The notes under the pieces: generated by a model
The model's database searches: none
The model's input: only the letters and a program-made list of their open reading frames with translations
What the model was told of the DNA's origin: nothing
Part shown: positions 577 through 15,830 of the stretch, piece after piece
Layout of the letters: each line of letters starts with the position of its first letter
Position numbering within the stretch: position 1 is the stretch's first letter
Position numbers and translations under genes: made by a program
DNA from: Pseudoclavibacter triregionum
Lineage (GTDB): Bacteria > Actinomycetota > Actinomycetes > Actinomycetales > Microbacteriaceae
Direction of reading: 5' to 3'
DNA length: 64,000 bases
Assembly: GCA_910822395.1 (NCBI GenBank)
Contig: OU365335.1
Span: 930,001 to 994,000, forward strand

Positions 577-1120
577 GCTGCACCGCCAGGGCGGCGCGGC
601 TCTGCTCGCGCTCAGGGGTGCTGGCCGCCGGCCGAGCCGACAGGGCAGCCCAGCTCACCAGGGCCATGCACACGCCCGCGGCCACCGTGCGGATGCCGTT
701 GTAGAACTGCCAGCCGGACGAGTACTCCTGCCAGATCGCCCGGGCGGATGCCTCGTCGGCGGGCACGGGGGTCGCCGCCAGCGCCTCATTCATGGGCACG
801 TTCACGGTGGACGTGAGGATGAGGCAGCCGCCCAGGTAGAGCACTGTGGCCGCGGCGAGCAGATGGGTGGACAGTCGGGCGCCGGTCAGCCAGGTGACCA
901 CGGCGCTGAGGCCCGTGGCCAGCGGCGGCAGGAAGAAGATCGGGAAGAAGGCGAAGTTGCGGACGGTGGCGTTCATGGCCTGCATCGACTCCATCGCGAC
1001 GCGAGGGTCGATGTCGTCGAGACCCCAGAGGGTCGAGCAGAACCAGGCGTAGAAGAAGCCGAAGATGGCACCGGTCAGCATGAGGCTGATCAGCAGCGCG
1101 GGTTTCACCAGGCGGTCCAT
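569..1120 (-). CDS. DUF1772 family integral membrane protein
   Basis: A protein of 183 residues with four hydrophobic segments (near residues 7-28, 56-75, 83-105 and 140-160). The pattern with NVPMNEAL and a conserved W before the last segment matches the DUF1772 (anthrone-oxygenase-like) family. I chose ATG 1120-1118 over an upstream in-frame start because AAAGGA lies 5-10 bases before it and homology begins at MDRLVKP. The gene overlaps the flavodoxin gene downstream by 8 bases. DUF1772 members include a few oxygenases for polyketide-type anthrones, but most are uncharacterised. Pairing with a flavodoxin suggests a redox reaction at the membrane; that is inference. Confidence 0.8.
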   Translation of the reverse strand: MDRLVKPALLISLMLTGAIFGFFYAWFCSTLWGLDDIDPRVAMESMQAMNATVRNFAFFPIFFLPPLATGLSAVVTWLTGARLSTHLLAAATVLYLGGCLILTSTVNVPMNEALAATPVPADEASARAIWQEYSSGWQFYNGIRTVAAGVCMALVSWAALSARPAASTPEREQSRAALAVQRG

Positions 1121-1344
1121 GGAAGTCCTTTCGAGCGGGGTGGCTCCATGGTCCCCAGAGCGGGCCGCCGGGACATCCGCCCAGCACAGCAACGTGAATC
1201 TACTCCACCGGGAGTATGCGCTCCCCGGCGGGCGCCGGTGCGGTGTTGTTCGGGTCTCCCGCGAATTGGGCCGGGGCCGGACCGCTGGCGCGCCTGCCCC
1301 TTCCTGCGGTCATGCTGCTGGGTGCGCTCGCAGAGCCTATGCGC

Positions 1345-1361
1345 TAGCAGATTGCTATCAT
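1345..1361 (+). promoter_or_regulatory. Palindromic operator overlapping the vapBC -10 box
   Basis: TAGCA-GAT-TGCTA (1345-1357) is a perfect 5-bp dyad. It overlaps TATCAT (1356-1361), which lies 6 bases before the vapB ATG. VapB proteins usually repress their own operon by binding such dyads, so this is a good operator candidate. The short gap to the ATG implies a leaderless mRNA. Confidence 0.55.
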
Positions 1362-1367
1362 CTGGCC

Positions 1368-1595
1368 ATGGCGACGCTCTACGTCCGCGAGGTTCCCGAA
1401 GAGGTGGCCGCCGTGCTCAAGGAGCGCGCCGCGGCGCAGAACCAGTCGCTGTCCGCGTACGTGAACACGCAGCTGGCCATGATCACTGCGCGCCCGAGCA
1501 ATGCCGAGATCGTCGAGCGGCTCCGCACCCGCGTCCGCGAGCCCGAGGTCACCACGGAGCGCATCCTCGACGAGGTGCAGGCTGGTCGACGGTGA
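1368..1595 (+). CDS. vapB: VapB-type antitoxin
   Basis: A protein of 75 residues. The N-terminal half (YVREVPEEVAAVLKERAAAQ) has the ribbon-helix-helix pattern of FitA/VapB antitoxins; the C-terminal half (TTERILDEVQAGRR) would wrap the toxin and insert a basic residue in its active site. It is followed directly by vapC with a 4-base GTGA overlap, the usual antitoxin-first order. A palindrome overlapping the -10 box just upstream fits autoregulation. The start ATG follows TATCAT by 6 bases with no ribosome binding site, so translation is probably leaderless. Confidence rests on both the fold pattern and the partner gene. Confidence 0.88.
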   Translation: MATLYVREVPEEVAAVLKERAAAQNQSLSAYVNTQLAMITARPSNAEIVERLRTRVREPEVTTERILDEVQAGRR

Positions 1596-1987
1596 TCGTC
1601 GTCGATGCGTCGGCGATGGTCGAGGCCCTCTGCGGGGCGGCGCCGGCGAAGGCGCTGCTCGCCATGCTTGCCGGCGACATCCATGCCCCGCACCTGCTCG
1701 ACCTCGAGGTGACTTCGGTCCTGCGCGGCCTCGAGCTGGGTGGTGTCATCACGCCCGACGGGGCTGAGCTGGCCCTCGGCGACTACTGGGCCTTCGCCAT
1801 CGAGCGTTACGACATGGCCCCGCTCCGCGAACGCGTCTGGCAGCTGCGTCACCAGTTCACCACCTACGACGCGAGCTACCTCGCCCTCGCCGAAGCCCTC
1901 GATGCCCCGCTCCTCACCTGCGACCGGAAGCTCGCGACGAACGGCCATCGTGCAGCCGTGACCCTCTTCTCGTCGACGACGCGCTGA
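1592..1987 (+). CDS. vapC: VapC-type PIN-domain ribonuclease toxin
   Basis: A protein of 131 residues beginning with GTG inside the antitoxin stop. The PIN acidic residues are visible: D4 or D5 in IVVDASAMVEAL, E in LDLEVTSVLRG, D in TYDASYLALAEAL, and the last acid in LLTCDRKLA. These bind Mg2+ or Mn2+ in the family, and VapC toxins cleave tRNA or rRNA to halt translation. Length is normal for the family. The pair lies outside the IS block, so it may be a chromosomal module rather than a passenger of the nearby elements. The RNA target cannot be read from the sequence. Confidence 0.9.
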   Translation: MIVVDASAMVEALCGAAPAKALLAMLAGDIHAPHLLDLEVTSVLRGLELGGVITPDGAELALGDYWAFAIERYDMAPLRERVWQLRHQFTTYDASYLALAEALDAPLLTCDRKLATNGHRAAVTLFSSTTR

Positions 1988-2124
1988 CCGGCTTCCGCGC
2001 TGCCAGGGGTTCGATCGACCTCGATTCCGCCAGCACCGCGGGGGCTCGGCGGGAGGCCTGATCACGGCAGGCGATGGTGCGCCGGTGCGCGTGCGCCATC
2101 AACTTCGAACGACGCGAGGTCGTG

Positions 2125-2961
2125 TCAGCGGACGCCGTAGAGCCGCTCCTGCGTGCGGGCGATCTGCTCCCGGGCGTCCTCGCCGCGGAGCGCGCTGACT
2201 CCAGCCAGCGCGCGGCGAAGCTCCGCGGCGTGCTCGTCGGCCTCGGCCCGGACAGCACGATCCGCGTCCGCCTCCGCGGTGCCGGTGGGCCAGGACGCGC
2301 GCGGCAGGTCGCTCTCGAGCAGCAGGCGGTCGGCCGGCATGGAGGCGACGGCGGCGGGCCCGCGCCGGCCCTCGAGCATCGAGGTGTGGACCGAGAGGCA
2401 GCCGCCGAGCTCGACGAGGCGGCGGAGCTCCTGCTCGCCGCCCGGGAAGCGGTGCATGACCGGCACGAAGTTCCGCTTCGCGACGCGCGCCTCGGCGAGG
2501 AGGTTGATGACCTGCCCGCCCGAGCGCACGGAATGGATCGAGAGCACCACGGGCTCGCCCCCATCCCGCTGCTCACCGGCCGCGCAGGCGAGCTCGAGCA
2601 CGCGCCGCAGCACCCGCCCCTGGAGCTCGGCGCGCGCGGTCGCGAGCCGGCGAGGGGAGTGGTCGAGCCCGATCTCTCCGACGAAGCGCGTCATCGACAG
2701 CGCCTTCTCGAGCGCGGCGAGCTCGCGCTCGGCCTGCTCCTCGCCCTCGATCCGCCAGGGATGGAAGCCTGCCGACCAGAGCGGTGGGGCGACGCCGCGG
2801 AGCGCCTCGTCGGCCTCCGCCGTCAGCTCGAGGAAGGACGACGGCGTCAGCGTCTGCGCGACCACGCGGATGCCCGCCGCCCCGATCGCCTCGAGGTATC
2901 GGCGGCGCAGCTCCCAGCCCTCGAGGAAGTCGAGGTGGTGGTGGGCGTCGAGGAGGATCAT
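2125..2961 (-). CDS. TatD-family metal-dependent hydrolase
   Basis: A protein of 278 residues with the metal ligands of the TatD amidohydrolase fold: HxH in LDAHHHLDF near the N-terminus, E in FVGEIGLD, H in VLSIHS, H in PVMHRF, and D in LLLESDLP. TatD enzymes are 3'-5' exonucleases or related deoxyribonucleases. This one has divergent spacing (QTLTPSSFLELT, no standard PGxHP), so it may be one of the TatD-like proteins of unknown substrate. Its ATG overlaps the TGA of the truncated tcdA-like gene upstream (ATGA), so it was once the second gene of an operon. Loss of that gene's 5' part may have removed its promoter. Confidence 0.8.
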   Translation of the reverse strand: MILLDAHHHLDFLEGWELRRRYLEAIGAAGIRVVAQTLTPSSFLELTAEADEALRGVAPPLWSAGFHPWRIEGEEQAERELAALEKALSMTRFVGEIGLDHSPRRLATARAELQGRVLRRVLELACAAGEQRDGGEPVVLSIHSVRSGGQVINLLAEARVAKRNFVPVMHRFPGGEQELRRLVELGGCLSVHTSMLEGRRGPAAVASMPADRLLLESDLPRASWPTGTAEADADRAVRAEADEHAAELRRALAGVSALRGEDAREQIARTQERLYGVR

Positions 2962-3316
2962 GCGCCGGCCGGCCGCCCGCCGTCCGCGCCGCCCCGCAGC
3001 GAGGGCGGCGGCGGCATCTCGGCGAGCCCGGCGAGCCGCTGGATGACCATGCCCGCGAGCATCTGGCCGATGATCGGCGGCATGTAGCTCATCGATCCGA
3101 GCGACTGGGCCTTCGTGACCGAGGTCGCGCCGCCCTGGCCCCCCGGCTCGCCCGGGCCCTCGGAGCGCCCCACCGCGAGCGGCGCGGGCAGCTCACGGGA
3201 CGAGAGCACCTCGAGCCCCGCGATCCCGCGCCGGCGGCACTCCTTGCGGATGACGCGCGAGAGCGGGCACGAGCGGGTCTCCTCGATCGGCGCGAACTCG
3301 AGCTGGCGGGGGTGTG
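2958..3316 (-). pseudogene. 5'-truncated TcdA/ThiF-family (E1-like) C-terminus
   Basis: About 120 codons match the C-terminal part of TcdA, the ATP-dependent tRNA threonylcarbamoyladenosine dehydratase: CPLSRVIRKECRRRGI, a strand near LEVLSSRELP, and the C-terminal hydrophobic region GSMSYMPPIIGQMLAGMVIQRLAG. The whole adenylating domain with the nucleotide loop (GxGxxG) is absent. Recognisable coding stops near 3305-3316, where a different, oppositely oriented gene begins. The remnant lacks any start and cannot be active. It formerly preceded tatD with ATGA coupling. The end is given to within about 10 bases. Confidence 0.7.
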
Positions 3317-3719
3317 CGCGCTCGTCGGCCTGGTCGGCGGCAGCGCGCTCGGTCGCTCGTTCGAGCAGCAGGCCGCGGCGGACGCCGCGGCGGCGCAGGC
3401 GGCGGCTGCGGAGGCCGCGAAGTCGAGCCTCTTCGAGGACGCGCTGAACAAGTGCGGCGCGAGCTCGAAGGCGACCGTGGAGGACGACGGCCGAACGCTC
3501 ATCCTCGACATGAGGGGGAGCAAGTCGCTGTCCGGGACCCTCACCGCGACCGAGACCTACTGCGTCCTCGACGCGCTCGACGTCCCGACCTCGGTGAAGT
3601 CGCTCATGGACACGACCCGAGCGCTCGACGGCCGGCAGACCGGATCCTGGGGCGACATCGAGGCCTCCTGGTCGTACCACCCGGACCAGGGGCTCGACAT
3701 CGTCCTGACCCTCGACTAG
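3301..3719 (+). pseudogene. 5'-truncated single-pass membrane or secreted protein
   Basis: The frame ending at TAG 3717-3719 reads as a transmembrane helix (LAGVCALVGLVGGSALG) followed by a small soluble domain containing GRTLILDMRG, ALDGRQTGSWG and SWSYHPDQGLDIVLTLD. It resembles small anchored hypothetical proteins common in Microbacteriaceae. No start codon with a ribosome binding site precedes the helix; the sequence before about 3301 is the antisense of the tcdA remnant. I therefore read it as cut at its 5' end. It is possible that only a few cytoplasmic residues are missing. Function is unknown. Its stop lies directly against the stop of the MFS gene on the other strand. Confidence 0.55.
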
Positions 3720-5000
3720 CTACGGCAGCGGGTCCCCGAGCTGCCACCCCGGCGGCCGCCACGGCAGGAACACGAGCGTGAGCGCGACCGCAGCTGCGAT
3801 GAGGCCGAAGACGACGAGCGCGAGGCCCGGCCATCCCATCGCGACGAAGGCGAGGCCGCCGATGAAGCCGAAGGTGCTCGACCCCGCGTAGTAGCCGAGG
3901 TTGTAGAGCGCCGTCGACTGGGCGCGGCCCGTCGTCGCGGAGGCGCCGGCCCATCCGGATGCGACCGAATGGGCGCCGAACAGGCCCGCCGTGAGCACGA
4001 GCAGGCCCGCGACGATCGCCCAGAGCTGCTCGACGAGCGTGAGGGCCAGGCCCGCGGCCATGATCGCCGAGAAGAGGAGGATCGTCCGCTTCCGGCCGCT
4101 CGCCGCCGCCATCCGCCCCGCGATCGGCGACGACACCGTGCCCGCGAGGTAGGCGAGGAAGACGAAGGCGACGATCCAGGTCGGCAGCCCGTACGGCTCG
4201 CCCGTGAGCCGGTAGCCGAGGTAGTTGTAGACGGCGACGAAGCCGCCCATGAGGAGGAACCCGAGCGAGTAGAGGGCGACGAGGCGCGGGGTCTGCAGGT
4301 GCCGACCCACGTTCCGGAGCGCGGCCCGGGCGGCGCTCGCGAAGGTCTCCTCGGAGCGCGGCTTCGGCGCGAAGCCCCGCGAGGCGGGCATGACGGCGAG
4401 GAAGATGCCGGCGGAGACGAGCGCGAGGGCCGTCACGGCGACCGAGCCCCACTGCCATCCGAACGCCTCGCCGACCGGCCCCGAGATGAGCCGGCCGCTC
4501 ATGCCGCCGACCGTGTTGCCGGCGACGAACACGCCCGCCGCCGCGGGCGCGGCCTTCGGGTGGAGCTCCTCGTTGAGGTAGGCGTGCGCGATCGCCGGGA
4601 CGCCGCCCATCGAGAGCCCCTCGAGCAGCCGCGCGAGCAGCGAGAGCTCGTAGCTCGGCATGAGCACCGAGATGAGCGAGAAGACGACGGCGAGGCAGAT
4701 CGACCATCCCATCGCTCGCACGCGGCCGATGCGGTCGGCGATGATCGACCACGGCAGCACCGAGAACGCGACGCCGAAGGTCGCCATCGAGACCATGAGG
4801 GCGGACGTCGGCGCATCCACCCCGAAGGCGTGCGAGATCTCCGGCAGCACGGCCTGCGGGGCGTAGAGCTGCGCGAAGATCGCGAGCCCGCCGAAGAACA
4901 TGCCGATCATGATGCGGCGGTACTCGCGGCTCGCGCGGTCGTGCCCCCGCCAGCGGTCGCCCGGCTCCCGATCGGGAAGGGGCGCGGCGGGGGAGGACAT
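3720..5000 (-). CDS. MFS transporter, YnfM/AraJ-like
   Basis: A protein of 426 residues with 12 predicted membrane segments and a long central loop (residues 225-245). The signature loop between segments 2 and 3 is present (IIADRIGRVRAMG), with the matching motif in the second half (IAGRMAAASGRKR). LLEGLSMGGVPAIAHAYLNEE is typical of the YnfM/AraJ-type drug or sugar efflux group. The substrate cannot be predicted. TACCCT lies 7 bases before the ATG, and GGAGGGG between them could serve as ribosome binding site. The gene is convergent with the truncated gene at 3301-3719, the two stops being adjacent. Confidence 0.85.
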   Translation of the reverse strand: MSSPAAPLPDREPGDRWRGHDRASREYRRIMIGMFFGGLAIFAQLYAPQAVLPEISHAFGVDAPTSALMVSMATFGVAFSVLPWSIIADRIGRVRAMGWSICLAVVFSLISVLMPSYELSLLARLLEGLSMGGVPAIAHAYLNEELHPKAAPAAAGVFVAGNTVGGMSGRLISGPVGEAFGWQWGSVAVTALALVSAGIFLAVMPASRGFAPKPRSEETFASAARAALRNVGRHLQTPRLVALYSLGFLLMGGFVAVYNYLGYRLTGEPYGLPTWIVAFVFLAYLAGTVSSPIAGRMAAASGRKRTILLFSAIMAAGLALTLVEQLWAIVAGLLVLTAGLFGAHSVASGWAGASATTGRAQSTALYNLGYYAGSSTFGFIGGLAFVAMGWPGLALVVFGLIAAAVALTLVFLPWRPPGWQLGDPLP

Positions 5001-5066
5001 CCCCTCCAGGGTACGTCCGGGCTCGGACGTCCAGGCTTCGCGAGCCGAGCCCCCGACGCGCCGAGC

Positions 5067-5096
5067 TTGCGGCCAGGTGAACGGGCGGTATAGGCT
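5067..5096 (+). promoter_or_regulatory. Promoter of tRNA-Arg
   Basis: TTGCGG (5067-5072) and TAGGCT (5091-5096) are separated by 18 bases and stand 25 bases before the mature tRNA 5' end. This fits a housekeeping sigma promoter with a short 5' leader. Confidence 0.55.
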
Positions 5097-5121
5097 TCTC
5101 GACGGCCCAGCGATGGGCCGT

Positions 5122-5194
5122 GCGCCCGTAGCTCAATGGATAGAGCATCTGACTACGGATCAGAAGGTTGGGGGTTCGAGTCCCTCCGGGCGCG
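5122..5194 (+). tRNA. tRNA-Arg (anticodon ACG)
   Basis: A full cloverleaf is visible: acceptor GCGCCCG/CGGGCGC, D-arm GCTC...GAGC, anticodon stem TCTGA/TCAGA with loop CTACGGA, and T-arm GGGGG-TTCGAGT-CCCTC. The anticodon ACG is normally edited to ICG by the TadA enzyme, whose gene is at 15831. The accessory IS block begins about 110 bases downstream, a common position for insertions. Confidence 0.97.
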
Positions 5195-5213
5195 CACTGG
5201 TTGAGACAGTCCC

Positions 5214-5241
5214 GAAGGCCCCGCAGCAATACGGGGCCTTC
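5214..5241 (+). terminator. Hairpin terminator after tRNA-Arg
   Basis: GAAGGCCCCG and CGGGGCCTTC form a perfect 10-bp stem with an 8-base loop, 20 bases after the tRNA. There is no strong T-tract, as is common in actinobacteria. Confidence 0.7.
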
Positions 5242-5306
5242 GTCGTTCCCAGGGGGTCGTTCTCCCGGCCGCCAGAACACCGCCGCCCCGCCATCCCCGC
5301 TGGCTA

Positions 5307-5470
5307 GGGCGTGTCTCCCATATGTGGGGTGAGGCTCGCGGCAGTCTGGTCTGGTGAGGTCTGAATCGCGGTTGAGGGTGTTCACGGACGAGCAGTGGGA
5401 GCGGATTGCGCCGTTGTTGCCCTCGAACGAGGGCCGGCGTGGTCACCTGTTCGGTGATAGTCGCCGTGAA
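5307..5470 (+). mobile_element. 5' fragment of an IS5-family element
   Basis: A CTAG at 5304-5307 marks the probable left end. A GTG at 5353 opens a frame reading FTDEQWERIAPLLPSNEGRRG, the usual N-terminus of IS5-group transposases. The similarity stops after about 37 codons, near 5470, where the end of an IS3-type element begins. The rest of the IS5 element is absent, so it is a remnant without function. Confidence 0.65.
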
Positions 5471-5729
5471 TCGGCCTGGGTTTCGTTCCTATCGGTTTCC
5501 CTGTCCGGCGGTCGCCGGGAGGCCTGATTCGAGGTCAGCGTAGTACGCGTCCTCGATCTCGATCGGGGTGCGCATGCCGAGTTCGCCCTGCAGGCGTTGA
5601 TGGTTCCACCACCACACCCATTCGAGCGTCGCGAGCTCGACCTGCTCGACGGTCCTCCAGGGGCCGCGCTGGCGGATCAGCTCGGTCTTGTAGAGGTTGT
5701 TGACCGCCTCGGCGAGGGCGTTGATGCTC
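5471..5729 (-). mobile_element. 3' fragment of an IS3-family element
   Basis: The minus strand encodes the last 80 or so residues of an IS3 OrfB-type transposase: NALAEAVNNLYKTELI, WRTVEQVELATLEWVWWWNHQR and ELGMRTPIEIEDAYYADLE, with a stop at 5489-5491. The final catalytic glutamate lies in ALAEAVNNLYK. The bases from 5471 look like the element's outer end. The upstream part of the gene is missing, cut by an IS110-type end near 5730. The fragment is inactive. Confidence 0.75.
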
Positions 5730-5828
5730 CTATAGTTGTCAACTCGCGATTTCGCCGGTTCTAGGGTCGGTCTTGACGAGGTGGTAGACCTCGCGGATGA
5801 CGTAGCGCTTGAGGCAGCGGATGATGCG
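5730..5828 (-). mobile_element. 3' fragment of an IS110-family element
   Basis: About 29 codons on the minus strand (IIRCLKRYVIREVYHLVKTD, stop 5739-5741) match the C-terminus of IS110-family transposases, and TTGACAACTATAGGAGCATC after the stop resembles the usual end of that family. The fragment is flanked by an IS3 remnant on one side and an IS21 remnant on the other, so it marks a third insertion in the same spot. Confidence 0.6.
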
Positions 5829-7055
5829 CCTACCTGGCCGGGGAACGCTCCCCGGGCGTCCGCAAACCCGCCGGGCCGGACACGTTCGCCGTGTTCGTCG
5901 ACTACGTCACCGCGAGGCTCACCGAGGACCCCCACCTCTGGGCCGTGACGCTTTACGACGAGCTGCGCCCGTTGGGCTACGAGGGCTCGTATCAGACGTT
6001 GACGCGGCAGATCCGTGACCGTGGCCTCAGGCCGGCTTGCGCGGCCTGCGCGCACGTCACGAAGCGTCCGAACGCGATCATCGAGCATCCGCCGGGTGAG
6101 CAGACCCAGTTCGACTGGGTGGAGCTTCCCCACCCGCCTGCCGGCTGGGGGTTCCCGCGGAAGAACGCTTACGCGCTGGTGGGGTCGCTCGCGCATTCCG
6201 GTGTCTGGCGGGGCGTGTTGTCGCCGTCGATGGACACCCCGCATCTGCTGGCGGCGATGACGAGCCTGCTGGCGCTGTTGGGCGGGTTGACGAGGGTCTG
6301 GCGATTCGATCGGATGCGGACGGTTCTCGACCCGGGCACGGGCGATCTGACGGGAATGTTCGCGGCGTTCGCGACGCATCACGGTGTTCAGGCCGTGGTC
6401 TGTCGGCCGAGGTCGGGGAACCGGAAAGGCGTCGTCGAGAAGAACAACCACACCGCCGCGCAACGCTGGTGGCGGACCGTTCCTGACGACATCACTCGAG
6501 CAGGCGCAAGCCAGTTTCGAGGCGTTCGCGGCAGGTCAGGACGACCGGCGTCGGGAGGGGCCGGGCGGGACGACGACGGCGGCAGAGATGTTCGCCGCGG
6601 AGAAGCTCGCGCCGTTGCCGACAGTGGTGTTCCCGGTGATCGTCGCGGAGGAGCGAACCGCGACACGGCAGGCGCTGGTCGACTGGCGAGGGAACCGCTA
6701 CTCGGTCCCTCCGGAGCTGGCCGCATCGCGAGTCATCGTCTCTCACCGCCTCGGCGCGGCGAGCATCGACATCGCCACGGTCTCGGGAACGGTCATCGCC
6801 CGGCATGACCTGCGCGAGGCGGGGCTGGGAGTCACGGTCCGCGATGGCGGTCACGTCGCCGCGCTCGAGGCGATCGCGGCCGCGTCGACTGCTCCGGGGC
6901 GACCGCATCGCAGGAAGGAGCGCATTCCTCCGGGCGAGACGGCCCTTGCCGCCGCACGCGCCCTCACTGGCACGCCCAGCAGCTCGCGGGCGGCGACGGT
7001 GATCGATCTTGCCGCTTACGAGAAGGCCGCGAAGAACAGGAACACGCTCCAATGA
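5829..7055 (+). pseudogene. istA: IS21-family IstA transposase, truncated and frameshifted
   Basis: Recognisable IstA sequence starts near 5829 with AYLAGERSPGVRKP, so roughly 40 N-terminal residues with the helix-turn-helix start are lost. The catalytic core is present: first Asp in QTQFDWVELP, the second region in RFDRMRTVLD, and the Glu in KGVVEKNNHTAAQRWW. Between 6485 and 6500 the frame changes: TVPDD reads in one frame and LEQAQASFEAFAAGQDD in another. The rest, through IDLAAYEKAAKNRNTLQ, is continuous and ends at TGA 7053-7055. With both a missing 5' end and a frameshift the gene cannot give a normal transposase. Confidence 0.88.
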
Positions 7056-7894
7056 CCAGCACGAACACCACCACGACAGCGACGGCCACGGCGGCGGCAC
7101 CGGCATCTCACGCGTCGGTCTATCAGCAGCTGCGCGGTCACCTCGCGGAGTTGAAGCTCACCGACGCTGCCGAAGCGCTCCCGAGCATCCTCGACCAAGC
7201 CGCCAGTGAACAGTGGTCGCTCACACACGCACTCGAGCGTCTGCTGCAGGTCGAGGTCACCGCGACCGAAGCGCGCCGCCTGGCCGGCAGGTTCCGGTTC
7301 GCGAACCTCCCGGCCGGGCACACGCTCATCGGGTTCGATCTCGACGCCGCCAGCGGCATCGACCGGCCGCTGCTGGACGAGCTCGGCACCTGCCGGTTCA
7401 TCGACACCGCCACGAACGTTCTGCTGATCGGCCCGCCCGGCGTCGGGAAGACCCACATCGCTACCGGTCTCGGGCACGCCGCGGTCACCGCCGGGTATCG
7501 CACCTACTTCACCTCGGCGGCCGATCTCGCCGCGCGCTGTCATCGCGCCGCGATCGAGGGGAAGTGGGCGACGATGATGCGGTTCTTCGCCGGACCGACC
7601 CTGTTGATCATCGACGAGCTCGGCTACCTCCCGCTCCCCGGCGAGGCCGCGTCGGCACTGTTCCAGGTCATCAATCAGCGGTATCTGAAGACCTCGATCG
7701 TGATCACCACGAACCGTCCTGTCGGAGCCTGGGGCGAGGTCCTGGGCGACACGACCGTCGCGGCCGCGATGCTTGACCGGCTCCTGCATCGCAGCGTCGT
7801 GGTCAACCTCGACGGGGCCTCGTATCGACTGAGGGAGCATGCCACGGCCGCGGACGAGATCCGACGCGCGACAACGGGCACGAACCTGCGTTAG
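7052..7894 (+). CDS. istB: IS21-family IstB ATP-binding helper
   Basis: A protein of 280 residues, apparently intact. It shows Walker A GPPGVGKTH and Walker B LLIIDELGYLPL of the AAA+ IstB/DnaC-like family, followed by the sensor region SIVITTNRPVGAWGEVLGD. IstB assembles on DNA and directs the IstA transposase to targets. Its ATG overlaps the istA stop (ATGA), the usual arrangement. Because istA is broken, this copy could act only in trans on another IS21 element. Confidence 0.93.
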   Translation: MTSTNTTTTATATAAAPASHASVYQQLRGHLAELKLTDAAEALPSILDQAASEQWSLTHALERLLQVEVTATEARRLAGRFRFANLPAGHTLIGFDLDAASGIDRPLLDELGTCRFIDTATNVLLIGPPGVGKTHIATGLGHAAVTAGYRTYFTSAADLAARCHRAAIEGKWATMMRFFAGPTLLIIDELGYLPLPGEAASALFQVINQRYLKTSIVITTNRPVGAWGEVLGDTTVAAAMLDRLLHRSVVVNLDGASYRLREHATAADEIRRATTGTNLR

Positions 7895-7910
7895 CCTTCT
7901 CCCGCGACCT

Positions 7911-7950
7911 GGGGAGTTTCGATGAGCAACTCCGGGGAAATCCGATGAGC
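7911..7950 (+). repeat. Subterminal direct repeats at the IS21 right end
   Basis: Two 17-base copies (7911-7927 and 7934-7950) share GGGGA...CGATGAGC and differ at three positions. IS21 elements carry such multiple terminal repeats as transposase binding sites, so the element's right end lies close downstream. From 7951 to 8141 I see nothing else. Confidence 0.6.
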
Positions 7951-8141
7951 GCCATCACCCCGTCCATGAGAGCAGTCTGCGCGCCCCGTGACGTGGTCAT
8001 GACTCAACGGAGCCGCCTCACGTCGCGTGAGGGTCAAGCACAGATGCCGAGGATCCGGACAGGGCGCCCGGGACTTTTCCTCGGTGGCTGGTAGGACCTA
8101 GGGAAATTCGGATCTGGTGCGAGGGGTGGGATCATCGGGCG

Positions 8142-9014
8142 ATGAAGGGGACGAGGGTCAAGGGGACGAGGGTCATTTCGGTGGCGCTGCTGGTGCTGTG
8201 CGTGGCCGTCGTCGGGATGCTGATCTTCGCGAAGGGGGAGGACGTGGACGACGAACCGGGCCGAAGGATCACCCTGCCGCCGCTCGGTGGCATCGCGGAC
8301 TACCAGATCGGTGGGGCCTACCCGCCCGACCCCGAGGTGGAGATCGTCACCAGGGACCGGTCGCAGGATCCAGTCGACGGGGTGTACTCGATCTGCTACG
8401 TCAACGCCTTCCAGGTCCAGCCCGACGAGCTCGCTCAGTGGGAGCGGGACCGTCCGGATCTGGTGCTGCGCGGCCGCGACGGAGCGGTGGTCATCGACGC
8501 CGACTGGGACGAGGCGCTTGTCGACACCTCGAGCGCCGCAGCCCGAGAGCGGCTCATGAGTGAGGTGATCGGACCGTGGCTCACGGACTGCGCGAGCCGC
8601 GGGTTCGACGCCGTTGAGCCGGACAACCTCGACAGCTTCACCCGTAGCGGCGGCGCGCTCACTCGTAGCGACAACCTGGCGCTCGCCTCGCTCATCACCT
8701 CCCAGGCCCATGACCTCGGGCTGGCCGTGGCGCAGAAGAACACTGCTGAGCTCACCGCAGCCGAGGTACGAGCGGTCGGCTTCGACTTCGCGGTCGCCGA
8801 GGACTGCGGCCGCTACTCCTGGGGCGAGGGCACCGAGTGCGACCGCTACCGCGCGATCCATGGCGGGCGCGTGATCGAGATCGAGTATGCGGACGGCGGG
8901 GTGGACGCCTTCGAGCGCGCGTGCGCCCGCGCAGACGGGCCCGCCTCGATCATGCTCAGGGACCGCGCCGTCGTGCCGCGAGGTGCTCCCGGGTACGTCT
9001 ACCGGACGTGCTGA
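8142..9014 (+). CDS. GH114 endo-alpha-1,4-polygalactosaminidase-like hydrolase
   Basis: A protein of 290 residues with an N-terminal membrane anchor (about residues 11-30) and an extracellular TIM-barrel domain. WQ-like start DYQIGG, CYVNAFQV, the acidic motif FDAVEPDNLDSF, and VAQKNTAEL with FAVAEDCGRYSWGE are typical of GH114. Family members cut galactosamine polymers such as the fungal galactosaminogalactan and related Pel-type polysaccharides. Its 3' end overlaps by 16 bases the 3' end of the spherulin-4 gene on the other strand. A 15-base duplication (AGGGGACGAGGGTCA twice) lies just inside the start, so the true start may be one unit later. Confidence 0.82.
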   Translation: MKGTRVKGTRVISVALLVLCVAVVGMLIFAKGEDVDDEPGRRITLPPLGGIADYQIGGAYPPDPEVEIVTRDRSQDPVDGVYSICYVNAFQVQPDELAQWERDRPDLVLRGRDGAVVIDADWDEALVDTSSAAARERLMSEVIGPWLTDCASRGFDAVEPDNLDSFTRSGGALTRSDNLALASLITSQAHDLGLAVAQKNTAELTAAEVRAVGFDFAVAEDCGRYSWGEGTECDRYRAIHGGRVIEIEYADGGVDAFERACARADGPASIMLRDRAVVPRGAPGYVYRTC

Positions 9015-9712
9015 GCGCGCCGCGACGTGGGCCCGAACCAGCCTACCTCACCCCACGGGTGAGGTAGGGCGCCGGGACTGACCCCGAGCAGCGTCGCGCC
9101 CAGCTCGCGGCTCCGGCGGACCACTGCGGCCACCTGGTCGGGTCGGCACCCGTGGATCAGGTGCCAGACGTCGCCGGCATCCCCGTCACTGAGCCAACCG
9201 GGCGGATCGAGCCGCAGGTGGGTTTCGACGTCGCACTCGCGCACGCAGACCGCATCGCAGAGGTCGAGCAGTGCCGGGTGGCACAGCGTGCCGGGATTGG
9301 CGGAGACCCGCGATGCGCCAGCGGAGCGGACTGCGCCGACAACCCGCTCGAACGACGCGGCTGCCGAATGGTCCAGCACACCGGTGCCGGTCACCGCGGA
9401 CGGCGCGCAGTCGAGGAAGATCGACTCGACCCCATAGAGGTCCTGCCACCGACGCACATCGGCGACGATCTCGGCGATGGCTCGGCGCCCGTAGTCCATC
9501 GGGACGTACCCGTGCACGCGGCTGCCCGGAACCCGCCCGTCCTCACGGTCGAGGAGGGCATCACGATAGGCAGAGTCGGGGGTCGAGCCAGGCCCCGAGT
9601 CGACGTTGACGACGAGGACCGACACATCGGGGCTCTGCAGGCAGCGTCGCCAGAGGCCCGGGTCCTCGACGGGATGCCGGTACAGCGGGATGCCGGCACG
9701 CATCTCGACCAT
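8999..9712 (-). CDS. Spherulation-specific family 4 protein (GH135-like)
   Basis: A protein of 237 residues beginning at ATG 9712-9710, 7 bases after the stop of the membrane-protein gene. IPLYRHP near the start, VLVVNVDSGPG, VHGYVPMDYGRR, VESIFLDCAPS and VSANPGTLCHPAL are the family's strands and acidic residues. The fungal homologue Sph3 is a GH135 N-acetylgalactosaminidase required for galactosaminogalactan. No signal peptide is visible, so it may act in the cytoplasm or leave by another route. It is the last gene of a minus-strand operon after the PelF-like and membrane proteins. Confidence 0.82.
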   Translation of the reverse strand: MVEMRAGIPLYRHPVEDPGLWRRCLQSPDVSVLVVNVDSGPGSTPDSAYRDALLDREDGRVPGSRVHGYVPMDYGRRAIAEIVADVRRWQDLYGVESIFLDCAPSAVTGTGVLDHSAAASFERVVGAVRSAGASRVSANPGTLCHPALLDLCDAVCVRECDVETHLRLDPPGWLSDGDAGDVWHLIHGCRPDQVAAVVRRSRELGATLLGVSPGALPHPWGEVGWFGPTSRRAQHVR

Positions 9713-9719
9713 TTCGGAC

Positions 9720-11069
9720 CTACCAGCTACGGGGGTGGCAGGTGGTGTCGATGGCGCGTGCCGCCGTGAGGACAACGCAGGCCGTGAGCACTGCTGCGCC
9801 CAGGGCCGTGGAGAGGTGGGTGACGGCGAGGATACCGATGAGACACAGACTCGCGAGACGCACCGCTCCCATCGCGCGTCCAGCGCGCAGCGTCATCGCC
9901 GTCGCCATGGTGAACAGCCCGAGCGCAGGGGCGATGACGAAGAAGGCGACCTCGTCGCTGACCCGTCCGGCGTCGGCGACCGACCGATGGTCGAGCGCAA
10001 CGGCAACCGTGACGGTGGTGGCGCCGGCGATGAGGCCAGCGAGGGCTAGGTAGGTCAGGGTTCGCGCGATCACCCCGGCCCGCACGGTAGACCAGGCTGA
10101 GCCGCGCCGGGTGAGAGCGCGCAGCCGGACCGCGAAGTCAACCATGATCGGGTCGCACAGAGCGGCGGCGATGACCAGGCCGAGCGAGAGCGGGATCCGC
10201 GCCCCGAGGCCGACTGAGTAGAGCGCGACGACCACTGCAGCGGAGAACAGCGCGGCCTGGACCGCGGCGACGGCGCTCGCACCGAGGTCCCGCCGGTCCG
10301 GCAGCCTCGGAGCCCGTCGACCCACGCTCGTCGTTCGCCGATAGCTCGCCGTCGCGAGGACGCAGGTTCCCACCGCGAGGGCGACCAGTGCGGCGCCGGG
10401 CAGCCAGCGTGCGCCGGCCAGGTGGCCCGTCCCGGCCGCGACGAGGCAGGCGGCGGCCAGGGCGGCCAGGACCCGCAATCGGCCGAAGACCGTGGTCATG
10501 GCCTGGGCGGCGACGAAGGGCAGCCACAGCAGGGCGATGAGGCCGACGACTACTCGGTGGTCGCCCGCCATCGCTAACACGAGGAGGATCGCTGCCGGGA
10601 CAGCGAGGATCGCCAACGCAGCGCTGCGCCTCGCTCCGTCGGCCGGCTGAGCGAGCCCGACGCGACGCCAGGCCACCGCGCCGACGAGGTTGCCGGTGAT
10701 CCAGCCGGCAAGGCCGATCGGGACGACCGCTCGCGCGACCGCCTCGATCTGCACGAGGTTGGCCGCGGCGAGGGCCACGATGAGGGCGCCGGAGAGCAGG
10801 ACCACCGCCCGCAGCCAGCCTTCCGCCCGAGGGCTGGCATCACTCCGGACCGCTCGCCGGCGGGACGTGCTGCCGGTGGGGAGGGTTCGCGCGTAGTGGT
10901 AGACGTCGGCGAAGCCGTACTCGCGCGCCATGGCATCGCTGAAGCCAGCGGCCTCGAGGCGCGCAGTGGCGTCCAGGCTGTCCACCGTACCGGCGACGAG
11001 TCTGGCGTGCCGCGCGGCCCGGCGGCTCGCGACGGGTCCGTCGAGTCGCTCGGAGAAGGAGGCGCTCAC
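9720..11069 (-). CDS. Polytopic membrane protein of exopolysaccharide locus (PelG-like position)
   Basis: A protein of 449 residues. The first 75 or so are soluble (with FSDAMAREYGFADVYHYARTL), followed by 11-12 hydrophobic segments spread to the C-terminus. GTG at 11069-11067 overlaps the stop of the PelF-like gene (GTGA), which fixes the start and shows an operon. No family is certain from the sequence. Position after a PelF-like glycosyltransferase and before a spherulin-4 protein suggests a flippase or synthase subunit in the place PelG holds in Pel operons; that is inference. With the upstream gene cut by an IS, its expression is in doubt. Confidence 0.7.
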   Translation of the reverse strand: MSASFSERLDGPVASRRAARHARLVAGTVDSLDATARLEAAGFSDAMAREYGFADVYHYARTLPTGSTSRRRAVRSDASPRAEGWLRAVVLLSGALIVALAAANLVQIEAVARAVVPIGLAGWITGNLVGAVAWRRVGLAQPADGARRSAALAILAVPAAILLVLAMAGDHRVVVGLIALLWLPFVAAQAMTTVFGRLRVLAALAAACLVAAGTGHLAGARWLPGAALVALAVGTCVLATASYRRTTSVGRRAPRLPDRRDLGASAVAAVQAALFSAAVVVALYSVGLGARIPLSLGLVIAAALCDPIMVDFAVRLRALTRRGSAWSTVRAGVIARTLTYLALAGLIAGATTVTVAVALDHRSVADAGRVSDEVAFFVIAPALGLFTMATAMTLRAGRAMGAVRLASLCLIGILAVTHLSTALGAAVLTACVVLTAARAIDTTCHPRSW

Positions 11070-11781
11070 GAGCTCGACCCTAGCGGACGAACGACCGGAC
11101 CGGCTGGTCGAGCATCCGCGGTGGGCGCCACGGAGGCCGGCAGGAACGCCGCGGGCGTCGTTTCCCCTTCGCCGGCGAGCTCGGCATACCAGCGGCGGAA
11201 CGAACCGACGCAGCTCTGCAGGGTGAGGTGCTCTTGGGCGTGCCGACGGGCTGCCGCGCCGACGCGCGCCCGGTGGGCCCGGTCGGTCAGGAGGCGGATG
11301 CACTCGGTGGCGAAGGCTTCCGGGTCCTTCGGCGGCACGAGGGCACCGCGGTCGCCGGATCGCCCGACGAGCTCGACGACGCCGCCGACATCGGTGCTCA
11401 CGGTGGCCTTGCCGCTCATCATCGCCTCGATGAGGGTCAGCGGCAGCCCTTCGGAGACGGAGGACAGGGCGACGACGTGGCCGGCGAGGAGCGCCGGGCG
11501 TGAGCCCTCGCTCGGGCCCTCCCAGGTCACGGCGTCCTCGATGCCCAGGCTGGCACTCTCGGCGAGCAGGTCAGCCTGGTATGCCGCCGCGGAGTCAGAG
11601 CAGGGTCCGAAGATGCGCAACCGCGCCTGGGGGACCTTTGTCCGGACGAGGGCGAAGGCGCGCAGCAGGGTATGCAGGTCCTTCAGCGGGTCGATACGGC
11701 CGACGAAGCTGATCGTCGGGACGTCCGGCTCGGTCTCGATCGGCGGGTACGCCGTTGGGGCGACGCCGTTGAGCACCGGGC
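11066..11781 (-). pseudogene. PelF-like GT4 glycosyltransferase, 5'-truncated by IS5 element
   Basis: About 238 codons remain. They form the C-terminal Rossmann half of a GT-B enzyme: FVGRIDPLKDLHTLLRAF, RLRIFGP, VTWEGPSEG, VALSSVSEGLPLTLIEAMMSGKATVSTDVGGV, and a C-terminal helix region. The VGRIDPLKDLHTLLRAFALVR signature is that of PelF, which polymerises Pel with UDP-sugars. The acceptor half (around 250 residues) is gone: the frame runs straight into the terminal inverted repeat of the IS at 11784. A GTG at 11776 could start a 237-residue fragment, but it would lack half the active cleft. The downstream genes were coupled to it. Confidence 0.83.
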
Positions 11782-11832
11782 TAGGCCGTGTTGCTAAATG
11801 CTGGTTCGGGGCCTTCGGGTGATCCTTGAGTC

Positions 11833-12222
11833 GTGTCGCGAGATGTCATCACGGACGAGGTCTGGGAGCTGATCCGGGACGTGTTCCCGCCGGTGAGGAC
11901 ACGGGGCCGTCCTCCGGTGGATCGGCGCACGGTGGTCGAGGCGACCGCGTGGCGGTTCCGCACGGGATCGGCGTGGCGAGACCTGCCCGATCGGTTCGGG
12001 AGCTGGAACACGATCTACAAGAACTTCCGCCGGTGGGCGAGCGACGGCGTCTGGGAGGACCTGCTCACCCATGTGCAGAAGCGGGCGTCGCTCGCTGGCG
12101 AGATCGACTGGGTCGTGTCGGTGGATTCCTCGATCGCGCGTGTCCATCAGCATGGCGCGACCTTGCCCCGGGTCACAGGGGGATCCGTCGAACTACAAGA
12201 AGTCCGGGCCGGAGCCTCCTGA
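11833..12222 (+). CDS. IS5-family transposase, first frame (OrfA)
   Basis: This frame gives the N-terminal domain (ITDEVWELIRDVFPPV, RFRTGSAWRDLPDRFGSWNTIYKNFRRW) and the first catalytic Asp in DWVVSVDSSIARVHQH. Family similarity ends near 12170, shortly after ATLPR, where the reading changes frame. Elements of the IS427 group often join two such frames by programmed ribosomal frameshifting. Whether the change here is programmed or a mutation cannot be told from one copy. Confidence 0.8.
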   Translation: MSRDVITDEVWELIRDVFPPVRTRGRPPVDRRTVVEATAWRFRTGSAWRDLPDRFGSWNTIYKNFRRWASDGVWEDLLTHVQKRASLAGEIDWVVSVDSSIARVHQHGATLPRVTGGSVELQEVRAGAS

Positions 12223-12697
12223 CCACGCGATCGGCCGGTCACGGGGTGGTTTGACGACGAAGATCCATCTCGTCTGCGACGGGCAGGCCCGGGCGCTGGC
12301 GTTCGTCCTCACTGGCGGGCAGGTCGCAGACACGAGCATGTTCACCTGCGTACTCGACGAGATCCACGTCCCCGGCCGAGGGCCTGTGCGCACGAGACCG
12401 GACCGGGTGCTCGCGGACAAGGGCTACCCGTCGAAGAAGAACCGGGCCTGGCTGCGCGAGCGCGGCGTCAAGGCCACGATCCCCGAACGGGGCGACCAGA
12501 TCGCGCACCGCCGCGAGCGGCCGGGCCGTCCGATCGACTTCGGCGATGACCAGCGGGAGCGTTACAAGGGCCGCAACGTCGTCGAGCGGTGCTTCAACTT
12601 CGTGAAGCAGTGGCGAGGACTCGCTTCCCGCTACGACAAGACTGCCCGGTCATACGCGGCAGGGATCTGCCTCTCCGCCGCTCTGCAATGGATTTAG
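12170..12697 (+). CDS. IS5-family transposase, second frame (OrfB)
   Basis: From about 12170 the next frame reads SNYKKSGPEPPDHAIGRSRGGLTTKIH, then the second catalytic Asp in VLADKGYPSKKNRAWL and the Glu in RNVVERCFNFVKQWRGLASRYDK, ending at TAG 12695-12697, ten bases before the IS end. All DDE parts of the transposase are therefore present across the two frames. No separate start with a ribosome binding site is obvious, so expression as a fusion with OrfA is the likely mode. Confidence 0.8.
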   Translation, partial: GSQGDPSNYKKSGPEPPDHAIGRSRGGLTTKIHLVCDGQARALAFVLTGGQVADTSMFTCVLDEIHVPGRGPVRTRPDRVLADKGYPSKKNRAWLRERGVKATIPERGDQIAHRRERPGRPIDFGDDQRERYKGRNVVERCFNFVKQWRGLASRYDKTARSYAAGICLSAALQWI

Positions 12698-12706
12698 CAA
12701 CACGTC

Positions 12707-13048
12707 CTAGCGCGCTGGCGCGATGAGCCCTGCGAGCTCGGCGAGCCGCTCGGGCACAGGCGAGTAGAGGCTCCACGTGCCGCGGCGCTCGCGAGTGAGG
12801 AAGCCGGCGTCGGTGAGCACCTTGAGGTGGTGCGAGACCGTGGGCTGGTGCAGGCCGAGCTCGGCGACGAGGGCCTTCACGGTGACGCCGTCGGGGTCGA
12901 GCGAGGCGAGGGAGAGGATTCGGACGCGGGCCGCGTCGGCGAGCACGTGGAAGGCGTGCGCGAGGCGGGTCGCCTCGGCGGCGGCGAGCGGCTCGGTGCC
13001 GTCGGTGCCGGGCCATGCGGCGGACTTCGGAAGACGCGCGGTGCTCAT
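12707..13048 (-). CDS. ArsR-family helix-turn-helix regulator
   Basis: A protein of 113 residues with the winged-helix core of ArsR/SmtB regulators: AHAFHVLADAARVRILSLL-like helix, VKALVAELGLHQPTVSHHLKVLTDAGFLTRERRGTWSLYSPVPERLAEL. No metal-binding CxC is seen, so it may sense something other than metals or be a non-metal ArsR. ATG 13048 is preferred to ATG 13060 because GAGG precedes it by 8 bases. Its stop codon TAG lies exactly on the IS5 boundary (C from the element, TA from the target), so the C-terminus appears natural only if the original target was CTAG. Confidence 0.85.
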   Translation of the reverse strand: MSTARLPKSAAWPGTDGTEPLAAAEATRLAHAFHVLADAARVRILSLASLDPDGVTVKALVAELGLHQPTVSHHLKVLTDAGFLTRERRGTWSLYSPVPERLAELAGLIAPAR

Positions 13049-13241
13049 GGTATGCCTCATTGCTGTGGGGAGTGCCTCGAGCCTAGTCGCGAGGGGGCGC
13101 GACCCGGTCGGTAAGCGCCGGTCGGCGGACCTGCAGATGCTCAGAACGTCCTGATGGCAACGCTAAGCCTGGTCGATCCGCGCAAGCTGGGCATCTGCCT
13201 CGGACCCGCCTCGGTCAATACCTCGACGTCGGGTCGCGGGC

Positions 13242-15748: not shown

Positions 15749-15803
15749 TTTCGAGACGCGGCCGGTGGTTTCGAGACGCGGCCCGCGGCCGCTCCTCAAC
15801 CGC
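15749..15803. repeat. GGTTTCGAGACG-type intergenic repeat (copy 1)
   Basis: Contains TTTCGAGACGCGGCC twice, followed by GCGGCCGCTCCTCAACCGCC. The same pair of blocks recurs at 40160-40245, 51760-51848 and 53944-54036, always between genes. Confidence 0.7.
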
Positions 15804-15830
15804 CTCGGTCCTGTGCGGCACGATGGACGC

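Follow-up and report, generated by a model that had tools for sequence, protein, structure and literature searches.

Why does the chromosome of the actinobacterium Pseudoclavibacter triregionum carry, side by side, genes that recall both the bacterial Pel system and the fungal galactosaminogalactan (GAG) system? The genes in question occupy positions 8142 to 11781 of the window, by which we mean the whole stretch of 64,000 nucleotides analysed here (contig OU365335.1, 930,001 to 994,000), and encode a GH114-like hydrolase, a spherulin-4-like hydrolase, a multi-spanning membrane protein and part of a PelF-like glycosyltransferase. We consider it likely that what remains here is the downstream half of an exopolysaccharide operon, Pel/GAG-like and of a type seen in Dietzia, that was acquired horizontally, entered as an island next to a tRNA-Arg gene and was broken at an IS5-type insertion sequence (IS), losing a deacetylase gene and the N-terminal half of its polymerase.

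All four genes lie where a first-pass annotation of the sequence had put them. On the plus strand, 8142-9014 encodes a 290-residue protein resembling endo-alpha-1,4-galactosaminidases of family GH114 (PF03537, 157.2 bits against a cut-off of 27; PDB 6oj1, E 8.8e-9); it has a single hydrophobic segment near its N-terminus. The remaining three genes are on the minus strand and comprise a 237-residue spherulin-4/GH135-like protein at 8999-9712 (PF12138, 77.1 bits against a cut-off of 30.2; profile match to Sph3, 5c5g, E 1.8e-27), in which no signal peptide was seen, a 12-helix membrane protein at 9720-11069, and a C-terminal fragment of a PelF-like GT4 enzyme at 11066-11781 (Glycos_transf_1, 102 bits). 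This fragment matches the PelF model NF038011 at 80.6 bits, under the cut-off of 100, and spans positions 285/306-489 of 489, the first ~285 positions being missing. Since the GTG start of the membrane gene overlaps the pelF stop (GTGA) and the spherulin-4 ATG at 9712 lies 7 bases past the membrane-gene stop, these three genes look like a coupled operon; the GH114 gene converges on it, and its 3' end overlaps that of the spherulin-4 gene by 16 bases. Strands and spacing are thus those of the coupled minus-strand operon with convergent GH114 that the first-pass annotation had described.

The same genes are found together elsewhere. PF12138 occurs in 31 of 394 genomes of the class, and the recurring operon was first seen on reading up to 20 kb round one site in 19 of the 30 other PF12138 genomes and in the window. 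Named loci were then taken as the best 80 of 300 confirmed places found with eight aligned cluster-type spherulin-4 proteins as the query, a search that relied on a single peptide pattern and missed loci without that motif. With 15 shorter loci set aside, 65 full-length loci were counted, and spherulin-4 is accompanied by an Agd3-like deacetylase, PelF and the membrane protein in 60 of them and by GH114 as well in 46, as judged with hidden Markov models built from first-round loci, of which four or more are again present in the set of 80. Four loci, all from Streptacidiphilus, have spherulin-4 alone, and one (L073), whose sequence contains N, has only spherulin-4 and GH114. Joint occurrence of the PelF-like and membrane genes with the two hydrolases had been set beforehand as the test of whether the locus is a chance assembly, and intact relatives had been named as the copies to study. 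A reciprocal check with an Agd3-like profile gave 28 hits in the 394 genomes, of which three were weak and partial and were dropped; 24 of the 25 genomes with strong matches are also PF12138 genomes. Counted by genus, the figures are 5 of 6 Agd3-like genera against 7 of 138 overall (Fisher p ~3e-7, the threshold for a strong match having been set after the list was inspected). Moreover, the gene order is repeated in Dietzia, Dermacoccus, Actinomycetospora and a Kocuria plasmid. A chance assembly of unrelated genes, to which we give next to no probability, is ruled out by this recurrence of the genes side by side in other actinobacteria.

Intact relatives are found in Dietzia, Dermacoccus, Actinomycetospora, Frankiaceae bins, the Kocuria plasmid and many Streptomyces, and a relative in Actinocorallia has the operon without GH114. 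The expectation that intact loci would be found in the Microbacteriaceae themselves failed, as none was present among 398 sampled genomes of the family. The cluster-type spherulin-4 profile matched nine of these, including that of the window, and the other eight have no partner genes within roughly 10 kb on each side. The closest of 12 loci compared are those of Dietzia, with identities of 60-64% for GH114, 57-59% for the glycosyltransferase, 46-47% for spherulin-4 and 38-40% for the membrane protein, and three Dietzia loci (L058-L060) have gene order and strands identical to the window, the convergent GH114 gene included. In trees of chosen loci (19 spherulin-4 and 18 glycosyltransferase sequences), both of which carry a long-branch warning, the window groups with Dietzia (support 98/97 and 90/93), and Dermacoccus stands next to the two (100/99). 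PelF is complete in both relatives tested (NF038011, 149 and 171 bits). A distant variant of the cluster (L053, from genome G258) has two GH114 matches, with the deacetylase gene between one GH114 gene and spherulin-4.

The upstream gene of the intact relatives encodes an Agd3-like deacetylase of about 680-740 residues, or about 1000 in one case with added fibronectin domains. This gene is an addition to the earlier reading, where it went unseen as the window lacks it. The Agd3 family PF25115 was matched at E 0.1 or better by 26 of 30 members of the deacetylase family. An AlphaFold2 model of the Dietzia maris protein (predicted local distance difference test score, pLDDT, 86.6) has Agd3 of Aspergillus fumigatus as its top fold match (6nwz_A, E 7.2e-32; template modelling scores 0.69/0.70 over 734 alignment columns, 18% identity) and human N-deacetylase/N-sulfotransferase as its second. 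Judging by this model, an Agd3-type deacetylase belongs to the operon, since the nearest fold is that of Agd3. With it, the mixture of Pel and fungal-type parts noticed in the first-pass annotation is seen more fully, as PelF stands with GH135 and GH114 and, in the relatives, with an Agd3-like enzyme as well.

What these families would make is probably a polymer containing galactosamine. The operon might instead produce something else, such as a heteroglycan or a cell wall polymer without galactosamine, by enzymes with other substrates. Identity to characterised enzymes is low (18% to Agd3, while Sph3 and Ega3 are reached by profile or at modest E-values), the Dietzia deacetylase scores above the cut-off for a heparan N-deacetylase domain (29.9 bits against 25) and below it for the Agd3 domain, and Streptomyces-type loci also encode two short-chain dehydrogenase/reductase (SDR) enzymes and a nucleotidyltransferase, a possible source of another sugar. 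However, four families linked to galactosamine polymers (CE18-like, GH135, GH114 and PelF) share one operon, one relative locus has a galE-type epimerase (337 bits, over the cut-off), the counterpart of fungal Uge3, and the deacetylase is nearest to Agd3 by fold. We therefore regard a polymer of another kind as distinctly improbable.

Compared with this complete operon, the window has GH114, spherulin-4 and the multi-spanning membrane protein beside a glycosyltransferase and lacks both the deacetylase gene and a full-length PelF-like enzyme; it is a remnant rather than a complete member of the Agd3-type operon kind. The glycosyltransferase gene stops at an IS5-type element on the plus strand (11785-12706; PF13340 and PF01609), whose inverted ends match (GCCGTGTTGCTAAAT / GACGTGTTGCTAAAT) and which is flanked by CTAG at 11781-11784 and 12707-12710. 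The earlier suggestion that the polymerase gene is cut is therefore borne out in this assembly. No Agd3-like deacetylase is present in the window, and none was found elsewhere in the genome with the Agd3-like profile at E 1 or again at E 0.001, a setting at which the profile did match 28 other genomes. A search of the genome with PF11997, the N-terminal part of PelF-like transferases, returned two pieces (E 2.75 and 3.7) that together reach 23.4-24 bits against a cut-off of 23.3. Both lie in a 433-residue glycosyltransferase at 2,094,810, which has 41.8 bits against PelF and was taken for a different enzyme rather than the missing half. A GT-B enzyme without its N-terminal domain is not expected to be active, so polymer synthesis by this locus should be dead in this strain, in line with the first-pass view of a dead or partial system.

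How long ago was the upstream half lost? We measured agreement at columns that are conserved in 95% or more of the reference rows, comparing the window with five intact outer rows. The window agrees at 32 of 60 columns for spherulin-4 (intact rows 35-40), 21 of 74 for the membrane protein (24-46), 76 of 107 for the glycosyltransferase fragment (78-79) and 49 of 109 for GH114 (45-87, with Dietzia at 45-52). It is thus the lowest of the six rows for every gene except GH114, by margins that are small against Dietzia. With so little decay in the remaining genes, either the loss was recent or the assembly collapsed between IS copies. The latter would mean that two IS5-type copies were merged and that the true chromosome has a complete operon. 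Besides the modest decay, this is favoured by three other near-complete copies of the element in the genome, at 98-99% identity, next to fragments and more distant copies, and by an assembly that is a single contig of 2.36 Mb scored 90.3% complete. Against it stand, neither of them strongly, the lack of any Agd3-like gene in the assembly and the ArsR-type flank, which is placed as in a relative; on balance we think an artefact of assembly unlikely.

The same decay figures bear on another possibility, namely that the window retains a set for scavenging or defence, in which an anchored GH114 and spherulin-4 degrade the galactosamine polymers of competitors (fungal GAG or bacterial Pel) and the synthesis genes were lost as unneeded. 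The frames of both hydrolase genes are open, and GH114 agrees with the conserved columns as well as its Dietzia counterparts do while the other three genes rank lowest. Asp101 and Glu159 of spherulin-4, which we take to be the catalytic positions from Sph3 residue numbers and roles, are kept in 71 of 71 aligned rows, and Glu220 of GH114, presumably the catalytic acid/base after Ega3, in 53 of 53. Since the window proteins keep these residues, both could remain active enzymes. However, a spherulin-4 without an export signal should not reach an external polymer, and the glycosyltransferase fragment, useless by itself, is hardly more decayed than GH114, which argues for recent loss. Retention for scavenging is accordingly a minor alternative in our estimate.

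Import of the operon is suggested by its surroundings. To the left, the locus is bounded by a tRNA-Arg gene (acg; 5122-5195, plus strand, ARAGORN), with the island starting at the 3' end of the tRNA, followed by IS pieces at 5196-8000 that include IS21-type istA/istB (PF01695, 252 bits at 7052-7894; Mu-transpos_C_2, 40.9 bits in 6384-7055; rve in 5891-6808 below the cut-off, 22.7 against 32.6). About 2.1 kb of this istA/istB region has 79% DNA identity to a plasmid of Corynebacterium atrinae. To the right, past the IS5-type element, an ArsR-type regulator gene (12707-13060, minus strand; PF12840/PF01022) is the chromosomal flank and lies outside the system. The site was compared in six of nine relatives of the genus. 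In one of them, G009, the MFS gene, tRNA-Arg and the ArsR gene are consecutive, and the alignment with the window ends at the tRNA end, 5195. As tRNA-Arg and the ArsR gene are only ~173 bp apart there, and the window has ~7.5 kb of IS pieces, the four genes and the IS5-type element in between, the locus looks like an island of ~7.5 kb next to tRNA-Arg. The G+C content at third codon positions is 0.84-0.89 in the four genes and 0.92-0.995 in three neighbouring chromosomal genes. Farther along the window, a sequence of ~45 bp between upp and tadA (~15757-15809) has ~35 other copies elsewhere in the genome, facing either way and in several cases forming inverted pairs at close spacing, and is perhaps a small interspersed or hairpin repeat.

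The operon is also carried on plasmids. Among 11 plasmid records with a spherulin-4 match, four were examined. The mobilizable Kocuria rosea plasmid NZ_CP126484.1 (locus L206) carries the whole agd3-like/pelF/MOP/spherulin-4/GH114 cassette at 630-9698, bounded by two inverted copies of a 944-bp transposase stretch that are 99.9% identical, and the cassette has the look of a composite transposon with an exopolysaccharide operon as its cargo. A Streptomyces californicus plasmid holds the Streptomyces form of the operon, and the spherulin-4 genes of Vitreoscilla and Caballeronia plasmids have unrelated surroundings. The Kocuria membrane protein is a relative of the window protein by profile (103 bits); a tblastn search found no plasmid homolog of the latter, a result that speaks only to the limit of tblastn.

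What, then, is the membrane protein? It has no Pfam or NCBIfam match at E 0.01 and no PDB sequence match at E 5, and it is homologous to the protein in the same slot of the relatives. Its model has 12 long helices in the fold of the MOP superfamily (MATE/MurJ/WzxE-like), preceded by a helical N-terminal part of ~75 residues. On this model, it is a protein of MOP-superfamily fold (MATE/MurJ-type) with no detectable sequence link to PelG. None of 43 members of the membrane protein family matched the PelG family PF16933 at E 1, and hhalign against four PelG sequences gave probabilities of 0.0-0.2, equal to reversed and shuffled controls, which rules out PelG by sequence. Nor can PelG be named from the fold, as MOP is a whole superfamily and the best 50 matches include no entry titled PelG. 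In two loci from other actinobacteria (L198 and L199), pelF, pelG and the agd3-like gene are consecutive, with a true PelG in the slot of the MOP-fold protein.

The two hydrolases are predicted to lie on opposite sides of the membrane. By a hydropathy test that allowed any start codon, with a threshold of 1.9, an N-terminal hydrophobic segment was present in none of 68 spherulin-4 proteins scored (of 70) from PelF-containing clusters and in 51 of 52 GH114 proteins, 45 of which have a lipobox-like motif; it was also present in 47 of 64 Agd3-like proteins and none of 41 PelF proteins scored (of 70 each). At a threshold of 2.2 the counts are 0/68 for spherulin-4, 41/52 for GH114 and 39/64 for Agd3-like proteins. 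The test can see a signal in this family, because 5 of 11 spherulin-4 domains scored from outside the cluster (12 tried) are positive. In Streptacidiphilus, four loci (L064, L069, L107 and L122) have a cluster-like spherulin-4 with no N-terminal hydrophobic segment and no partner gene in 20 kb. Lacking an export signal, the bacterial spherulin-4 should work inside the cell, or else leave it by an unrecognised route. We found no literature on a cytosolic site of action, in a search poor in subscription papers.

These observations suggest a scheme for the Dietzia-type operon, ordered agd3-like, pelF, MOP-fold protein and spherulin-4 with GH114 convergent, in which we infer the sugar, its linkage, the activity of each enzyme, transport by the MOP-fold protein and the cytosolic site of action. 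In the intact relatives, PelF would polymerise UDP-GalNAc in the cytosol, and the MOP-fold protein, which occupies the slot of PelG in some other operons, would move the chain across the membrane. Spherulin-4 would trim or release the fully acetylated chain from the cytosolic side, the exported Agd3-like enzyme would deacetylate it, and GH114, as an anchored protein or lipoprotein, would cleave deacetylated stretches outside. A bolder version, to which we incline less than to its negation, holds that GH135 acts inside the cell, on the side opposite to that proposed for fungal Sph3, and forms an integral component of a PelF/MOP-type synthase without PelG (for example, as a primer maker, a chain terminator or a clearer of stalled polymer), that the MOP protein replaces PelG without sequence kinship, and that the whole system is a mobile cassette on plasmids and tRNA islands.

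Several points weigh against a decayed operon of Dietzia type making a galactosamine polymer. The Agd3 family scores stay under the cut-off of 27.6 in all four proteins with scores (15.3-24.9 bits), and the position of Glu167, which we take to be one of three acidic residues important in Sph3, is Gln, Arg or Cys in this spherulin-4. Hydropathy is a crude signal test that missed 17 of 64 Agd3-like proteins, and the GH114 annotated on the Kocuria plasmid has no signal at its start. Most intact loci are from Streptomyces, so their counts are not independent, and 7 of the 31 PF12138 genomes, including that of the window, have no strong Agd3-like match. The empty site is that of G009, one of six relatives of the genus; in the five others, both the MFS gene and tRNA-Arg are missing to the left of the conserved block. 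The missing upstream half could reflect collapse over near-identical IS copies in an assembly of this completeness, and CTAG on both sides of the element fits true truncation and collapse alike. Lastly, our literature search found no biochemical evidence for the polymer in bacteria with this operon type.

The interest of the window copy, dead or broken, is chiefly that it indicates movement of the cassette. Cationic galactosamine polymers such as Pel and GAG bind biofilms together in bacteria and moulds, and bacteria related to this one probably use the gene set to make a sticky, galactosamine-rich slime like that of some moulds. With the intact copies, synthesis of the slime and spread of its genes become testable questions, and the Streptomyces among the carriers are tractable genetic hosts in which to ask why GH135, which cuts chains, should be needed in an operon for synthesis. 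If GH135 is indeed cytosolic, the current model, in which it acts outside the cell, does not apply to these bacteria.

Among known systems, the nearest is the bacterial agd3 operon. In its accessible text, Bamford et al. 2020 (PMC7229062) describe such operons with a cytoplasmic glycosyltransferase, a multi-spanning membrane protein and GH114, report spherulin-4 in those of some Actinobacteria and take up the question of inter-kingdom transfer. The intact relatives agree with this account, whereas the window copy is without the deacetylase and half of the glycosyltransferase. The operon type is therefore already published and the window is a decayed case of it; the first-pass idea of a bacterial polymer system is supported, but it was in print before. 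Operons of actinobacteria that join both toolkits bear on the published suggestion that the fungal cluster came from bacteria. Publications joining PelF, GH114 and Actinobacteria, or Dietzia, galactosamine and exopolysaccharide, were not found in the same limited search, and the text consulted in PMC6307706 and PMC7112194 contributes nothing on operons of this kind. The fungal GAG cluster, as given in the parts of PMC4817252 and PMC12054363 at hand, consists of uge3, sph3, gtb3, ega3 and agd3, and the intact bacterial relatives resemble it in that genes for GH135, GH114 and a CE18-type deacetylase adjoin. Where fungi have Gtb3, a predicted integral-membrane transferase, the bacterial operon has two proteins, PelF and the MOP-fold protein. 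Fungal Sph3 is membrane bound and cuts the chain leaving the cell on the outer side, according to the available text of PMC12054363, which cites a 2015 paper, in contrast to the cluster spherulin-4 of bacteria with its lack of an export signal. With the Gram-positive pel operon, outlined as pelDEADAFG in the portion of PMC7112168 consulted, the present operon shares PelF and an Agd3-like deacetylase, the pel deacetylase having the three-domain plan of Agd3 in the excerpt of PMC13254593. It differs in having no PelG by sequence and an unrelated membrane protein in its place, and in including GH135 and GH114, which go unmentioned for pel in that portion of PMC7112168. Beyond the operon type as such, the additions made here are a membrane protein of MOP fold that shows no PelG sequence, two hydrolases predicted on opposite sides of the membrane, an architecture of Dietzia type, a mobile cassette and a deacetylase model that matches Agd3 (6nwz); membrane protein fold, side of spherulin-4 and plasmid carriage are not given in the accessible text of PMC7229062.

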